IMG/VR virus record: IMGVR_UViG_3300020172_003834 | Location: 1 to 22,854 of that record | Source of the DNA: a virus | Direction: 5' to 3' (one strand) | Length of the DNA: 22,854 nt | In this document: positions 17,067-22,854 of the stretch, in pieces | Layout of the letters: every line of letters begins with the position of its first letter | Position numbering within the stretch: the first letter of the stretch is position 1 | The notes under the pieces: generated by a model | Database searches by the model: none | Told to the model about the DNA's origin: nothing | The model's input: the letters and a program-made list of their open reading frames with translations, nothing else | Position numbers and translations under genes: made by a program

Positions 17067-17909
17067 ATGGCAAAACCAAGCACAAGACAGGAATTGATTG
17101 ATTATTGTTTAAGGAGACTTGGTGCGCCTGTTTTAGAAATCAATATCGATGATGATCAAATTGATGATTTGGTGGATGATGCCGTTCAGTACTTCCAAGA
17201 ACGTCATTTTGATGGCGTTGAAAGAATGTACTTAAAGTACAAGATTACTCAGAATGATCTTGATAGAGGTAGGGCAAAAAATACGAATGGGATTGGTATT
17301 GTAACAACAACTGCAAATTCTACTATTCCTGGATATGGAACTACATCATTTAATTTTTATGAAACATCCAACTACATCCAAGTTCCCGATTCTGTTATAG
17401 GGATAGAAAAAGTTTTTAAATTTGATACTAGTTCCATATCTGGTGGTATGTTTAGTATCAAATATCAGTTATTCTTAAATGATCTTTATTATTTTAATTC
17501 AGTCGAGTTATTGCAATATGCAATGACTAAAACATATTTGGAAGATATTGACTTTTTACTCTCTACAGATAAACAGGTTAGGTTTAATAAGAGACAAGAT
17601 CGTCTTTATCTTGACATTGATTGGGGATCAGAATCAAAAGATAATTGGATAGTTCTTGATTGTTATCGAGCACTAGATCCAGCATCTTTCAGTCAAGTAT
17701 ATAATGATTCTTTCCTTAAAAAATATCTAACGGCATTGATTAAGAGGCAATGGGGTCAAAATCTTATTAAATTTAATGGTGTTAAGTTGCCAGGTGGAAT
17801 TGAGTTAAATGGTAGGCAATTGTATGATGATGCCGAAAGAGAATTAGATGACATTAAGTCAAGAATGACTTTAGAGTACGAATTACCACCTTACGATTTT
17901 ATTGGATAA
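17067..17909 (+). CDS. 13: Neck protein gp13
   Basis: 280 residues (T4 gp13 is 309). gp13 and gp14 form the neck that closes the DNA-filled head and provides the surface to which the tail binds. The N-terminal block RQELIDYCLRRLGAPVLEIN followed by DDQIDDLVDDAVQYFQERHF and DGVE corresponds to remembered T4 gp13 (LKDVILRRLGAPIINVE, then [20 protein letters not shown]). The C-terminal half holds WIVLDCYRALDP and a basic helix LTALIKRQWGQNLIKF, also usual for the family; the last segment ends MTLEYELPPYDFIG. The start is set by AAGGAG at 17055. The gene ends in TAATG overlapping gp14, so the two neck proteins are probably translationally coupled. Confidence 0.95.
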   Translation: MAKPSTRQELIDYCLRRLGAPVLEINIDDDQIDDLVDDAVQYFQERHFDGVERMYLKYKITQNDLDRGRAKNTNGIGIVTTTANSTIPGYGTTSFNFYETSNYIQVPDSVIGIEKVFKFDTSSISGGMFSIKYQLFLNDLYYFNSVELLQYAMTKTYLEDIDFLLSTDKQVRFNKRQDRLYLDIDWGSESKDNWIVLDCYRALDPASFSQVYNDSFLKKYLTALIKRQWGQNLIKFNGVKLPGGIELNGRQLYDDAERELDDIKSRMTLEYELPPYDFIG

Positions 17910-19579
17910 TGGCACTTAATCCATTTTTTCTTCAGGGATCTTTTAGTGAGCAAAGACTTGTACAGGAGTTGATTAATGAACAACTCAAGATATATGGTGT
18001 CGAAGTTACTTATATTCCAAGAAAAGTTGTTGGGAGAGGAAAACTTTATGGATATGAAGATCTGAAAGAAATTAGTTCGTCAACTTTCGACGATAATTTT
18101 TTATTAGAAGCATACGTACAAAACTACGAAGGATATGCTGGTTCTGGAGATATTCTAACAAAATTTGGAATGTCTTTAAGAGATGAAGTTACGTTAATTA
18201 TCTCAAGAGAAAGATATGAAGATTTTATATCTCCATTTTTGTCAGGGTTACCCGAAGATGAAATTTTACTAAGTGCAAGACCCAAAGAAGGTGATTTAAT
18301 ATATTTCCCATTAGGTGGAAGATTATTTGAAGTTAAATTTGTTGAGCATGAAAGTCCATTTTACCAGTTAGGTAAAAATTATGTTTATGAATTAAAATGT
18401 GAACTCTTTGAGTATGAAGATGAAGTCATTGATACTTCAATTGATGAGATTGATCGCACAATTGAGGATGATGGTTATATTACGACATTAATTTTATCTG
18501 GGTTAGGTGTAACTGCAACTGCTAACCCAACAGTTAATACTGGATATATTAGAGAAATATTTTTAAATGATGATGGGTATGATTATACCTCAACTCCAAC
18601 GATTACTTTCTCATCTCCATCTGGAGGAACTCAGGCAACTGCGGTTGCCATTACAACTAACAAAAGTGGAGTTTATTCGATATCACAAATTTTATTAACA
18701 AATGCAGGTAGTGGATATACTTCTACACCAAGTATAATAATTACTGGTGGAAATGGAACTGGGGCGGCAGCAACTTGCAGCATAGCAAATGGATTTGGAT
18801 ATTTTGGGTTAACCCAACTTACTTTGGGTGCTCAAGGATCTGGATATCCAACTCCACCAATTGTTACAATATCAAATCCAACTGGTGTCGCAGGAGTTGC
18901 CACTGTTGGAATATCAACTCTTGGATCAGTTAATGCAATAAGTATTGCTAACGGTGGAACTTTCTATGATCCAAATAAAAATCCAGTAGTTACCTTCTCC
19001 ACACCAAGTCCACAACCATCTGGATTTGTAACTGCAACTGGATATGCTGTAGTAGGATCTGCAGGTACTATAACCTCAATTGTATTATCCAATGTTGGAT
19101 TTGGATATACTGTACCACCGACAATAAGTATTGGTAGTAGTTTTGCTGACAAAGTTGGATTAAATACTGCAAGAGCTGTGGCAGTTGTTAATAATGCAGA
19201 CCAAGTTTCAGGTTTAAGAATTGTCGATCCTGGTAATGGATATATTTCTGGTAATGTAACAGTTACTATTGCAAATCCACCAAGAATTACTGGAATAGGT
19301 ACATATCAATTTAATGAATTGGTTGTTGGATCACAATCCAGAACTACCGCAAGAGTTAAATCTTGGGACTCGGATACGAGGATTCTCAAAGTTGGAATAA
19401 ATAGTGCAACCTTCTATGAAGGTGAGGACATAGTTGGTGCTGCTTCTTCGGCAATTTTCTCACTGTCTTCATATGATCAAATGGATATTTACGATCCATA
19501 TGCACAAAATGACGAGATAGAAGCAATAGCGGATCAACTTGTAGATTTTTCAGAATCGAATCCATTTGGTAATTACTAA
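17909..19579 (+). CDS. 14: Neck protein gp14 with a large repeat insertion
   Basis: 556 residues, more than twice T4 gp14 (256). The first 190 residues are a clear gp14: GVEVTYIPR at 30-38 (T4 GVECYYVPR), EDLKEI at 50-55, FGMSLRDEVTL at 86-96 (T4 FGMQVQDEVTL), PKEGDLIYFPLGGRLFEV at 125-142 and SPFYQLGKNYVYEL at 149-162 (T4 DPFYQLGQNAIRKI). Residues about 195-455 are six GSGYT-type repeats absent from T4 gp14. After them, residues about 460-520 hold another beta-like stretch (ELVVGSQSRTTARVKSWD), and the end FSESNPFGNY aligns with T4 FESSPFDNDF. The insertion therefore lies between conserved ends, is in frame, and probably forms a domain projecting from the neck. The gene is coupled to gp13 and gp15 by TAATG overlaps. 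Confidence 0.94.
   Translation: MALNPFFLQGSFSEQRLVQELINEQLKIYGVEVTYIPRKVVGRGKLYGYEDLKEISSSTFDDNFLLEAYVQNYEGYAGSGDILTKFGMSLRDEVTLIISRERYEDFISPFLSGLPEDEILLSARPKEGDLIYFPLGGRLFEVKFVEHESPFYQLGKNYVYELKCELFEYEDEVIDTSIDEIDRTIEDDGYITTLILSGLGVTATANPTVNTGYIREIFLNDDGYDYTSTPTITFSSPSGGTQATAVAITTNKSGVYSISQILLTNAGSGYTSTPSIIITGGNGTGAAATCSIANGFGYFGLTQLTLGAQGSGYPTPPIVTISNPTGVAGVATVGISTLGSVNAISIANGGTFYDPNKNPVVTFSTPSPQPSGFVTATGYAVVGSAGTITSIVLSNVGFGYTVPPTISIGSSFADKVGLNTARAVAVVNNADQVSGLRIVDPGNGYISGNVTVTIANPPRITGIGTYQFNELVVGSQSRTTARVKSWDSDTRILKVGINSATFYEGEDIVGAASSAIFSLSSYDQMDIYDPYAQNDEIEAIADQLVDFSESNPFGNY
18540..19280 (+). repeat. Six GSGYT-type repeats inserted in gp14
   Basis: Repeat cores in order are GYDYTSTPTITF (about 18575), GSGYTSTPSIII (18707), GSGYPTPPIVTI (about 18836), GGTFYDPNKNPVVTF (about 18953), GFGYTVPPTISI (about 19097) and GNGYISGNVTVTI (about 19232). 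Spacing is roughly 38-48 residues. Ala/Thr/Gly-rich linkers such as GGNGTGAAATCSI join them. The fourth unit is degenerate. Confidence 0.85.
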
Positions 19580-20622
19580 TGTTAGGAACTTATTTTTATC
19601 ATCATATTATTAGAAAAACTGTAGTATCTTTTGGTACTATTTTTAATCAAATTCACATCAAACACAAAGATGATGATGGATTGGCAATTAGTGATATGCG
19701 GGTTCCACTGGCATATGGTCCAAGACAAAAGTTTTTAGCGAGAATTGAACAGCAACCAGAGTTAAATAAACCAACTCAGATTAGTTTGCCAAGAATGTCA
19801 TTTGAGATGAATTCTTTGCAATATGACGCAACTAGAAAGGCAGGCGTAACGCAAACATTTAAAGCTTCTGATGGAACTAATTTAAAAAAGGTATATTTAC
19901 CAGTTCCATATAATATTGGATTTGAACTTAATATCTTAACTAAACTAAATGATGATGCTCTTCAGATAGTGGAGCAAATACTACCATTTTTTCAACCAGC
20001 ATTTACAATCACAATTGATCTCATTGATTCAATTGGGGAAAAAAGAGATATTCCTGTTGTCTTGGAATCGATAAACTTCCAAGATGATTATGAAGGAGAT
20101 TTCTCAACTCGAAGATCACTAATTTATACACTTCAGTTTACAGCAAAAACTTATCTCTTTGGTCCTATTGCTGAGACAACTGATGGACTCATTAAGAAAG
20201 TTCAGGTTGATCAGTACAGTTCTCTCGATAGAACAACTGCTAAGAGAGAAATGAGATATACTGTGACAGCGAAGGCACTTAAAGATTATGATTCTGATGC
20301 CACAACGTTTATAACTGATCCAATTAATAAAGCAGTTATAACTTTAGAAGTTAATGATGCATCACTTCTTTCAGTTAATAATAGAATTGCCATTGATGAT
20401 GAAATTATGTTGATTAACTCCATATCTGGAAATACGCTTACAGTACAAAGAGCATACGATGGTACAATCGCTACAGAACATACAGATAATAGTACTATTA
20501 ATGTTTTAACCGCTGCAGATGATGCGAGAATAGATCCAGATGATGACTTTGGATTCTCAGAAAACTTTGATTACTTTGCAGATTCTAGGACTTATAGCCC
20601 AGTTCGCCAAATTGATGTTTGA
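19579..20622 (+). CDS. 15: Tail sheath stabiliser / tail terminator gp15
   Basis: 347 residues (T4 gp15 is 272). gp15 is the hexameric terminator that caps the sheath and tube and joins the tail to the neck. Matches to remembered T4 gp15: the N-terminus GTYFYHHIIRKTVVSFGTIF (T4 GYFYNSSFRRYATLMGDLF), IHIKHK, DMRVPLAYGPRQKFL near 39-53 (T4 FIRVPITYASKEHF), LPRMSFEM near 70-77, LQIVEQILPFFQPAF at 128-142 (T4 FQIVEQILPYFQPHF), and YEGDFSTRRSLIYTLQFT at 171-188. Residues about 250-310 hold an extra 'IDDEIM...VQRAYDGTIATEH' module. The tail ARIDPDDDFGF recalls the T4 C-terminal RDIDPEDWDG. The start overlaps the gp14 stop (TAATG); no Shine-Dalgarno sequence is seen. Confidence 0.95.
   Translation: MLGTYFYHHIIRKTVVSFGTIFNQIHIKHKDDDGLAISDMRVPLAYGPRQKFLARIEQQPELNKPTQISLPRMSFEMNSLQYDATRKAGVTQTFKASDGTNLKKVYLPVPYNIGFELNILTKLNDDALQIVEQILPFFQPAFTITIDLIDSIGEKRDIPVVLESINFQDDYEGDFSTRRSLIYTLQFTAKTYLFGPIAETTDGLIKKVQVDQYSSLDRTTAKREMRYTVTAKALKDYDSDATTFITDPINKAVITLEVNDASLLSVNNRIAIDDEIMLINSISGNTLTVQRAYDGTIATEHTDNSTINVLTAADDARIDPDDDFGFSENFDYFADSRTYSPVRQIDV
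20329..20510 (+). repeat. 'E(I/F)M...RG..GT...H' module inserted in gp15
   Basis: The translation has ITLEVNDASLLSVNNRIAID, DEIMLINSISGNTLTVQRAY and DGTIATEHTDNSTINV. It lies between the conserved gp15 core and the conserved C-terminal tail and matches modules in two other genes of this window. I do not recall an equivalent segment in T4 gp15. Confidence 0.7.
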
Positions 20623-20628
20623 TAAATT

Positions 20629-21051
20629 ATGTCAAATTCTTTCGATAAATTAGATAAAATTCTTTCTACAGAAAGTAATATTGTTGATGTTGATTCTGAT
20701 AGCACTGCGATAGAACTTGTAAGTGATGATAAAGGTGATATAAAAAAAGATTATGATTATACAAGGGCAAATCTTTATTCATTGATTGAGAAAGGTCAAG
20801 AAGCAATCAATGGCATCTTGGAACTTGCTGGAGAAGGTGGAAGTCCAAGAGCATATGAAGTTGCTGGTCAATTAATTAAAAGTGTTGCAGATACAACTGA
20901 TAAATTAATGGATCTACAAAAGAAACTGAAAGATGTGGAGGAAGAATCTACAAAATCAACAACAAATGTTACCAATAACTCTTTATTTGTTGGGTCTACT
21001 GCTGAGTTATCAAAATTATTAAAACAAGGTTTTCTAAATAATAAAGAGTAA
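20629..21051 (+). CDS. 16: Small terminase subunit gp16
   Basis: 140 residues (T4 gp16 is 164). gp16 forms a ring that recognises replicated concatemer DNA and stimulates the gp17 packaging motor. The layout matches: an acidic N-terminus, KDYDYTRANLYSLIEKGQEA at about 40-59 (T4 DDYGVVRRNMHFQQQML), a helical middle with GSPRAYEVAGQLIKSVADTT at about 71-90 (T4 DSPRHMEVFATLMGQMTTT) ending in a coiled-coil-like LMDLQKKLKDVEEE, and SLFVGSTAELSKLLK at 118-132 (T4 TVFMGSPTELMDEI). The ATG is 6 bases after the gp15 stop, without an obvious Shine-Dalgarno sequence. In T4 gene 17 follows directly; here a different gene follows. Confidence 0.94.
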   Translation: MSNSFDKLDKILSTESNIVDVDSDSTAIELVSDDKGDIKKDYDYTRANLYSLIEKGQEAINGILELAGEGGSPRAYEVAGQLIKSVADTTDKLMDLQKKLKDVEEESTKSTTNVTNNSLFVGSTAELSKLLKQGFLNNKE

Positions 21052-21063
21052 TCTTTTATTAAT

Positions 21064-22584
21064 GTGCATAAGTTAAAGTCTCACAAAACAGTTGAGCAGA
21101 TTGCAAAGAAGCATCGTATGGAGGTTTCTTTTATTCAAAAGCAACTGGATATGGGGGAACCAATTGAGCACGAGCACACAAAAAATCATGATCTTGCCAA
21201 AGATATTGCTCTTCAACATCTAGATGAAATTCCAGATTATTATACTCGATTAATTAAAATGGAAAGAAGTGCGAAGAAAGAGCATAAGAAATTTAAAGAT
21301 GTAAAAGAAGATCTTCGCAACTGGTTTGATCCATCGCACCCAGAGGGCGGTTGGAGGCGTTACAACACTAAAGGAGAATCAATAGGACAATGTGCCAGAA
21401 AAGAGGGGGAACCCAAGCCCAAGTGCCTGTCCAACGAGAAGGCAGCGAAATTACGTTCTCAAGGGGGTGTAAAGGCAATTGCCAGTGCCGTAAGGAGAAA
21501 GAGGAGTCAGGATCCAGTGGCAAATCGTAAAGGTAAGGGGGGAAAACCAGTCATGGTCTCAAATAAAATTAAGGAAGATATGGATCCAGTAAGATACTGC
21601 CCTAAGTGCCAAAAGAATGAAACACAATCTGAGTGTAAGTATGGTCCAAGTTTTTGGGCAATGTATTCCTCCCCATCAATGCTCACAACTAATCAAATGA
21701 AGTTTGATATTGCACAGGTTCATCCTACAAATGAGGGAAAAGATCATGAGTACTCAATGGCAAGATCTGAACTTTCCACAATCGTTAAGGCGGCAAAAAG
21801 ACTGCAGAAAAAAATGAAAGGAGAGGGTGAAATTGAGGCTTGGGTACAATCAAAGATTACCAAAGCAGCAGATTATATTGACACTGCGGCAGATTATCTT
21901 GAGAGTGGAGAACATAAAGTAGATGAAGCGTGTTGGGATGGGTATGAACAACGTGGAATGAAAAGGAAAGGAAAAAGAACGGTTCCTAATTGTGTAAAAG
22001 AAGAGAATAAACCAACCAATCCTAAACTTTGGGCAAAGTGGAAATCAAAGGCAAAAGCAAAATTTGATGTATACCCATCTGCATATGCTAATGGTTGGGC
22101 AGCGAAGGGATATAAATCAGAAGGTGGTGGATGGAAATCTGTAAGTGAGGGAGTAAGTTTTGACATTGGTTCTGGACATAAACAAGCGCAGAAACAAGCA
22201 AAGATCAGAAATCTTGCAACTGGTACAACTAACCCTAATGAGAAGTCTGCTGCCCTCAGAAAGTTAAGTGGACCTTCACTTCCTCTTGCAGATTCATACT
22301 CAAATTGGAGAACGGATTTGGGTGAAGACTGGCAATCAGTAAATCGCAAAGATAAAACTGATGGTCTCAGTCAAAAAGCTGTAGATGCTTATCGTCGTGA
22401 GAATCCAGGTTCCAAACTTCAGACTGCAGTAACTGAGAAGAAACCAACTGGTAAGAGAGCAAAGCGTCGTAAAAATTTTTGCAGCAGAATGAAAGGTATG
22501 AAGTCTAGACTAACTTCTGCTAAAACTTCTAGAGATCCTGATAGCAGAATAAATAAAGCATTACGTCGTTGGAATTGTAACTGA
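21064..22584 (+). CDS. Basic mosaic protein between gp16 and the window end, possibly head-internal
   Basis: 506 residues. The start is GTG 21064; the ATG two bases earlier (21062) meets a stop after four codons, and the next in-frame ATG (21121) would cut the first domain. Segments: 1-75, a DUF5661-like helical domain (HTKNHDLAKDIALQHLDEIP, DYYTRLIKMERSAKKEH); about 83-168, a DUF5872-like part (GGWRRYNTKGESIGQC, NRKGKGGKPVMV); 179-191, CPKC...C, a possible partial zinc site; about 229-288, a helical domain (EYSMARSEL, EAWVQSKITKAADYIDTAAD) that I recall from many marine T4-like phages; 289-310, ACWDGYEQRGMKRKG; 319-358, PKLWAKWKSKAKAKFDVYPS; and 435-506, a very basic tail (SQKAVDAYRRENPGSKLQ, RRKNFCSRMKGMKS, DPDSRINKALRRWNCN). 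High Lys/Arg content and clear segment boundaries suggest a DNA-contacting packaging or internal head protein, but no activity can be assigned. Domain names are from memory. Confidence 0.75.
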   Translation: MHKLKSHKTVEQIAKKHRMEVSFIQKQLDMGEPIEHEHTKNHDLAKDIALQHLDEIPDYYTRLIKMERSAKKEHKKFKDVKEDLRNWFDPSHPEGGWRRYNTKGESIGQCARKEGEPKPKCLSNEKAAKLRSQGGVKAIASAVRRKRSQDPVANRKGKGGKPVMVSNKIKEDMDPVRYCPKCQKNETQSECKYGPSFWAMYSSPSMLTTNQMKFDIAQVHPTNEGKDHEYSMARSELSTIVKAAKRLQKKMKGEGEIEAWVQSKITKAADYIDTAADYLESGEHKVDEACWDGYEQRGMKRKGKRTVPNCVKEENKPTNPKLWAKWKSKAKAKFDVYPSAYANGWAAKGYKSEGGGWKSVSEGVSFDIGSGHKQAQKQAKIRNLATGTTNPNEKSAALRKLSGPSLPLADSYSNWRTDLGEDWQSVNRKDKTDGLSQKAVDAYRRENPGSKLQTAVTEKKPTGKRAKRRKNFCSRMKGMKSRLTSAKTSRDPDSRINKALRRWNCN

Positions 22585-22760
22585 TGAAATTAGATCCTGA
22601 CGAGATTTCTTTAAATAATCTTACTAAAATATTCGAATATGAGAGAATTTCGAGAGAAATAGATTCTTGCGAAAATATAGAAGAATTGAGAAATATTTGC
22701 AAATGTTCTGTAAAACTTTATTTTAGTCAACAAGAAACAATCGCAGCAATGGTCAAATGA
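22584..22760 (+). CDS. Small conserved phage protein, unknown function
   Basis: 58 residues, reading MKLDPDEISLNNLTKIFEYE, then RISREIDSCENIEELRNICK, then an end at ETIAAMVK. The ATG shares its first base with the preceding TGA (TGATG) and the stop overlaps the next ATG (ATGA), so it is tightly coupled on both sides, which supports its being real despite its size. It looks all-helical with three Cys residues. I recall closely similar short proteins (D.I.L.NLTKIFEYE..SREID) in cyanomyoviruses near the terminase genes; no function is known to me. Confidence 0.8.
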   Translation: MKLDPDEISLNNLTKIFEYERISREIDSCENIEELRNICKCSVKLYFSQQETIAAMVK

Positions 22761-22854
22761 AATCATTCAATCAATTTCTATCAGAAGCCATCAACATTGC
22801 TGGTGACTTTAACGGCAACCTATACGTCAATGGTTCTGAACCACAATCGCAACC
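22757..22854 (+). CDS. Start of a protein with a capsid-targeting-like N-terminus (3'-partial)
   Basis: The frame is open to the window end, giving 32 complete codons. It begins MKSFNQFLSEA, followed by INIAGDFNGNLYVNG. The first 11 residues closely resemble the T4 capsid-targeting sequence MKTYQEFIAEA of internal protein III, which directs proteins into the prohead and is cut by the gp21 protease after (L/I)-x-E; here LSE-A would be the corresponding site. The ATG overlaps the previous stop as ATGA. The INIAGDFNGNLYVNG part matches N-termini that I recall from cyanomyovirus proteins of unknown function. The rest of the protein is outside the window, so identity cannot be given. Confidence 0.75.
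   Translation, partial: MKSFNQFLSEAINIAGDFNGNLYVNGSEPQSQ

Follow-up and report, generated by a model that had tools for sequence, protein, structure and literature searches.

A T4-like cyanophage fragment ends within a gene of the family PHROG_1742 whose product starts with a tag of the capsid-targeting sequence (CTS) type, the mechanism of which is already known from T4. It is quite probable that this gene encodes a small protein with a T4-type CTS at residues 1-10, and that the protein is loaded into the head and processed as proposed below. More interesting than this single gene is the use of the tag across cyanophages: T4-like cyanophages (Kyanoviridae) probably use a general CTS-addressed head-cargo route, which would explain the cytosolic enzymes found in their virions. 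The tag, the conservation of its functional positions, its likeness to the capsid cleavage site and its recurrence on unrelated proteins are all evident at the sequence level.

The window (the whole stretch of DNA analysed, 22,854 bases) is a complete IMG/VR record, and its last gene is therefore truncated. The 5' part of this gene, comprising 32 whole codons on the plus strand (22757..22854), starts at ATG 22757 and reads MKSFNQFLSEAINIAGDFNGNLYVNGSEPQSQ; full-length PHROG_1742 relatives are about 102-109 aa long. No function is assigned to the family, whose orthologue is T4-GC 1019. The ORF is a real gene on the evidence of its phrog_1742 match (residues 1-31, E 1.9e-12) and of tblastn matches of the window protein in 135 phage records, named as Synechococcus and Prochlorococcus phages or as cyanophages. 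The full-length homologues of S-SRM01 and of locus L163 replaced the 32-aa window protein as queries for related loci. An ORF cut by a contig end could be spurious, or its tag a chance match, but the family is kept in more than 130 phage records and only 0.05 chance matches are expected per window; family conservation refutes this explanation, to which we give practically no weight.

The gene overlaps its upstream neighbour, a 58-aa ORF of phrog_27081 (22584..22760, plus strand; unknown function), the TGA of which overlaps the ATG at 22757 (ATGA). Further upstream on the same strand are a protein of 506 aa that combines DUF5661 and DUF6321 domains and lacks a CTS (21064..22584), the terminase small subunit gp16 (phrog_445, 20629..21051), and the connector and tail-completion genes (17067..20622), namely head-tail adaptor Ad2 (17067-17909), head closure Hc2 (17909-19579) and tail sheath stabiliser (19579-20622). 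In S-SRM01, DSL-LC02, S-SCSM1 and S-SZBM1, the PHROG_1742 gene lies between gp16 and gp17/gp18. A CTS on the upstream 506-aa ORF was ruled out, an in-frame stop preceding its GTG and no tag being present there. Homologues of this DUF5661/DUF6321 protein carry a CTS at seven other loci (L106, L121, L143, L156, L157, L159 and L172), and S-SZBM1_192, which adjoins PHROG_1742 and has a DUF6321-like C-terminus, starts with the CTS MKTFKQYITEA.

The N-terminal tag and its cleavage site

The predicted targeting propeptide, MKSFNQFLSE, occupies residues 1-10 (22757..22786, plus strand), and its assignment draws on the T4 IPII/IPIII start and on conservation in 43 homologues. The preliminary description had aligned MKSFNQFLSEA without gaps to MKTYQEFIAEA of T4 internal proteins, an alignment that was confirmed with the IPII/IPIII start taken from the T4 record and is strengthened by the rarity of the motif: M-x2-[FY]-x2-F-[LIMF]-x-E occurs a single time in the window, both strands counted, and exactly at the 22757 start codon, whereas mononucleotide-shuffled windows average 0.05 occurrences. 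For a protein of S-CREM2 proteome composition, the chance of a start matching [FY]4 F7 [LIMF]8 E10 is 3.8e-5. The first 10 residues of T4 IPIII suffice for head entry, and within the T4 CTS residues 4 and 7 serve mainly in targeting and residues 8 and 10 in processing (PMC9026906). The window protein has F4 and F7 at the targeting positions. In the PHROG_1742 alignment of 43 rows, M1, K2, F7 and E10 do not vary; position 4 holds F in 42/43 rows and Y in 1/43, position 8 has L, I or M only, and positions 5 and 9 are the most variable of the tag. The PHROG_1742 N-terminus thus has all the sequence determinants of a T4-type CTS.

The gp21 protease cleaves after L/I-x-E, and residues 8-10 of the window protein form such a site (FLSE↓A, the arrow marking the predicted cut), so that gp21-type cleavage is predicted after Glu10 (codon 22784-22786, plus strand) and before Ala11. 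A conserved (L/I)-x-E-A site had been claimed; L/I/M8 and E10 do hold in 43/43 rows, but position 11 is Ser in 39/43 aligned rows and in 82/82 other proteins collected. The family motif therefore reads (L/I)-x-E-(S/A) in the alignment, with Ala11 of the window as the rarer variant. In five cyanophages, the pre-sequence junction of the major capsid protein (gp23), which in the alignment falls close to where T4 gp23 is known to be cleaved, reads [LI]-x-E↓A, and that of S-SRM01, FLSE↓A, is identical to window residues 7-11. S-SRM01, a close relative, encodes a gp21-type protease (phrog_207, E 8.5e-82), a scaffold and a major head protein, and the phrog_207 protease was found in 3/3 large contigs carrying the PHROG_1742 gene. 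Neither gp21 nor gp22 is present in the window, a 22.9-kb record that ends before that region. The S-SRM01 gene for this head maturation protease (MW015081, 135233-135883) was deposited as a 'primosomal protein'.

In the proposed mechanism, F4 and F7 would dock the PHROG_1742 protein on the gp22-type scaffold core during prohead assembly, and the gp21-type protease would then cleave LSE↓A behind E10. What is left, a body of about 92 aa predicted to consist of a disordered linker and a small beta-beta-alpha-beta domain, would be retained in the head, probably in few copies, and could exit together with the DNA.

The PHROG_1742 protein

The AlphaFold2 model of the L060 homologue shows a short helix at residues 4-8, a disordered stretch at 11-34 (pLDDT below 50 at 11-17 and 19-34) and a compact body at 36-103; the folded body has pLDDT mostly above 80 in the predicted models. 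This modelled layout is as expected for a detachable tag. In the window, the predicted mature protein would start within the low-confidence linker (22787..22854, plus strand), the folded body lying beyond the contig end. The body of the S-SRM01 protein contains 12 acidic and 8 basic residues by direct count, and T4 internal proteins are basic (PMC9026906). No homologous basic IPI/IPII/IPIII body was found: the body matches phrog_1742 only and is acidic by this count. The PHROG_1742 protein may thus work like an internal protein without being a homologue of one.

The fold invites comparison with T7 Gp2, an RNA polymerase inhibitor. For both models Gp2 (4lk0_M) is the top PDB hit, at a probability of 0.99 and with TM scores, normalised to the target, of 0.71 and 0.67; YkzG (epsilon) is one of the hits that follow. 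A protein delivered to the host and binding its RNA polymerase would fit this resemblance. However, the Foldseek E-values are 0.16-0.23, no PDB match falls below 0.001 and no sequence family match was obtained; small beta-beta-alpha-beta folds match easily. An RNA polymerase-binding cargo is accordingly a remote prospect. As for the anti-restriction role that had been raised for this gene, the searches give it no support: PHROG_1742 matches no known anti-defence or defence-related family, with no PADLOC match and no Pfam match above cut-off, although S-CREM2 virions do contain a CTS-bearing SAM lyase, described below, that is a plausible anti-restriction enzyme.

The virion data likewise fail to bear out the description of the protein as head-packaged. 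SSCSM1_30 (PHROG_1742) was not flagged in the published virion MS of S-SCSM1, and SSZBM1_191 (PHROG_1742) is not listed in the published virion table of S-SZBM1 (30 proteins); proteins of 61-93 aa, smaller than PHROG_1742, were detected in those proteomes. Because PHROG_1742 is not among the virion proteins detected in these two phages, its head packaging and delivery remain putative. Low copy, a detection limit or loss at maturation may account for the absence. Such loss would be expected if the tag acts as a CTS but the protein serves assembly in the prohead core and, in the manner of T4 gp67/gp68, is fragmented or removed when the head matures, so that it never reaches the host. This is the most serious alternative, though an improbable one. 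It accords with the absence from two virion proteomes, with a gene neighbourhood of head and packaging functions, in which a phrog_1645 virion structural protein is adjacent, with a second L-x-E within the helix of the body (L[AT]EQLQ) and with the published cutting of T4 core proteins into fragments by gp21. The predicted compact folded body (pLDDT mostly above 80) speaks against it, as does the fact that one of the proteins detected in S-SCSM1 virions is a multidomain protein with related domains. We know of no T4 core protein with a CTS-type N-terminal tag. The PHROG_1742 domain is also found within neighbouring proteins of the DUF5661/DUF6321 type (E 2e-8 for the best domain), and its fold matches a 517-aa S-SCSM1 virion protein (E 5.7e-4); these sequence and model comparisons argue for a head or virion setting. 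Overall, a place in the head or its core is likely for this tagged protein, and loading into the head by the tag is the preferred reading.

Tagged proteins in phage genomes and virions

A nucleotide pattern for M-x2-[FY]-x2-F-[LIMF]-x-E gave 29 matches in 12 phage genomes versus 3 with the pattern reversed. The T4 matches are exactly ipII, ipIII and gp61.1, and cyanophage genomes hold up to four tagged genes each. Lys2 is present in 24 of the 27 matches that start a plausible ORF (manual count), although the pattern does not require it. The S-PM2 genome has no match to this relaxed nucleotide pattern, and the tag is thus not seen in every cyanophage. In IMG/VR, a stricter pattern gave at least 75 uncut matches; among the matches listed, 75/75 uncut ones open a reading frame of 60 aa or more (median 349 aa), as against 28/74 (median 26 aa) for an E10K control, which was compared by ORF length and not by match number. 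The bodies behind the tag fall into at least 29 unrelated clusters, foremost NMNAT/cytidylyltransferase and DUF5661 proteins, with GNAT acetyltransferase and DUF6267 proteins among the others, so that the tag occurs on unrelated bodies within the same phage group. Work on T4 had already proposed the CTS as a means by which phages of this type package a variety of proteins (PMC9026906). T4 gp61.1 (AF158101, gene 61.1, 18966-19130) has the CTS-like start MKTFKEFIKED, and its TSGAVVNKGP is close to gp23 TSGAVTQIGP just past the gp23 cleavage region.

The N-terminal helix could also serve a function outside the head, such as contact with the terminase or a tail protein, its likeness to T4 being convergent. 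Within PHROG_1742 the motif is simply inherited with the gene, and the protein was not found in virions, both of which would suit such a role. Against it, dozens of unrelated proteins share this start, several of them in virions, and the T4 functional positions are conserved, with E10 required according to the E10K control. A non-head function is therefore quite unlikely, if slightly less so than the RNA polymerase contact considered above.

Published virion proteomes support the head-targeting reading for other tagged proteins. The S-CREM2 virion proteome (PMC10665884 Table 3) was mapped onto the S-CREM2 genome, in which the strict motif starts four proteins: SAM hydrolase gp6, kinase gp14, gp136 and cytidylyltransferase gp154. 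All four (4/4) are in the virion set of 52/219 proteins (Fisher p 0.003, an optimistic value because the strict expression was fixed after the S-CREM2 virion N-termini had been seen); a looser expression, run earlier on S-CREM2, placed 2/3 annotated genes in the virion set. With S-SCSM1 included, 5/6 strict-motif proteins are in virions (p 0.0013). Enrichment at N-termini was borne out in S-CREM2, where the motif starts four proteins; absence elsewhere was nearly so, with a single match in 48,308 internal residues. S-CREM2 gp13 and gp12 have weaker or displaced versions of the tag. A case kept aside for checking agrees: the kinase of S-CRM01, a reported virion protein, starts MISFDQFLSE. The kinases of S-B68 and MA01, considered here from sequence, have degenerate starts. 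NMNAT is both tagged and found in virions in S-CREM2 and S-SCSM1, and the virion NMNAT of S-SZBM1 has a tag one residue shorter, MRFRQFIIEA. The studies that published the S-CREM2 and S-SCSM1 proteomes did not decide between packaging and contamination as the source of such enzymes (PMC9602691, PMC10665884); the tag favours packaging. Use of the T4 loading route, as originally suggested, is thus supported by the CTS determinants, by the protease and scaffold of relatives and by other CTS proteins in virions, but not by the virion lists as regards PHROG_1742 itself.

Several further features of these proteins were observed. S-CREM2 gp6 (OR473000, 3837-5081; L097), with 19 unique virion peptides and the CTS-like start MKDFDSFLEE, has a Pfam S-AdoMet lyase match (E 2.3e-19) and could be an anti-restriction enzyme delivered from the head. 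The start of a marine relative (L428) reads MKTFKEFLEES. S-CREM2 gp12 (OR473000, 7704-10313) is a virion protein annotated as Cas9-like and without a Pfam match; it and its relatives in L426 and L427 keep a CTS-like RFASFMAEA or GFSSFIAEA about 17-27 residues from the start. That gp12 is a Cas9 with a misannotated start was rejected, since CTG precedes the tag-like stretch and no Pfam family matches. In several otherwise different cargo proteins (S-CREM2 gp12 and gp14, the NMNATs in L084, L089 and L091, and an ORF in L113), a shared module some 35 residues long, GLxxDGHGxWYDxxGxxVAKTxxGxLxF, comes after the tag. S-CREM2 gp160 (128342-129235), S-SCSM1_97 (93121-93306) and the L182 ORF at 339 contain a stretch, GFTGxxAxxGPxAGYDPLM, that repeats the N-arm of the mature major capsid protein; these proteins are small, two were detected in virions, and the L182 protein combines a CTS with the N-arm copy, which is possibly a second head-attachment motif. 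S-SCSM1_93 (91626-91835), a 69-aa virion protein, has a C-terminal CTS-like stretch, KKRTFKEFLEYIE.

In the proposed head-cargo route, a 10-residue tag would be cut by the protease that processes the capsid protein, at the same kind of site, and the cargo would comprise dozens of unrelated proteins, including NMNAT, kinase, SAM lyase, an acetyltransferase-like protein and PHROG_1742. Such a tag offers a mechanism for the enzymes (NMNAT, kinases, SAM hydrolase) that recur in cyanophage virion proteomes, and a simple way to predict head cargo across whole genomes in viruses that rank among the most abundant in the ocean. If the route is real, hypothetical proteins become candidate first-minute host-takeover or anti-restriction factors. 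No report of the tag in cyanophages was found in the open-access literature searched, other papers being outside its scope; the only paper with both 'capsid targeting' and 'cyanophage' in this text search has the latter solely in a reference title. The cyanophage-wide cargo route is thus an extension of the T4 CTS mechanism that is apparently unreported.

Comparison with known systems

How does the PHROG_1742 protein compare with known head proteins? T4 IPII and IPIII share with it 1) a 10-residue tag with F/Y4, F7, L/I8 and E10, 2) a small residue after the cut, 3) a tag separate from a non-conserved body, and 4) an encoded gp21-type protease, here in close relatives. Unlike them, the window protein has an unrelated body (PHROG_1742) that is acidic and not basic, belongs to a phage of a cyanobacterial host and is known here from genes alone. 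T4 gp67 and gp68 are likewise small proteins encoded among head genes, but they are cleaved into internal peptides. Within its own family, the window copy has Ala in place of Ser after the predicted cut. The virion enzymes of cyanophages (NMNAT/cytidylyltransferase, APH-like kinase and SAM lyase) share this N-terminal tag and come from phages of the same family; unlike PHROG_1742, they are larger and were detected in virions by MS.
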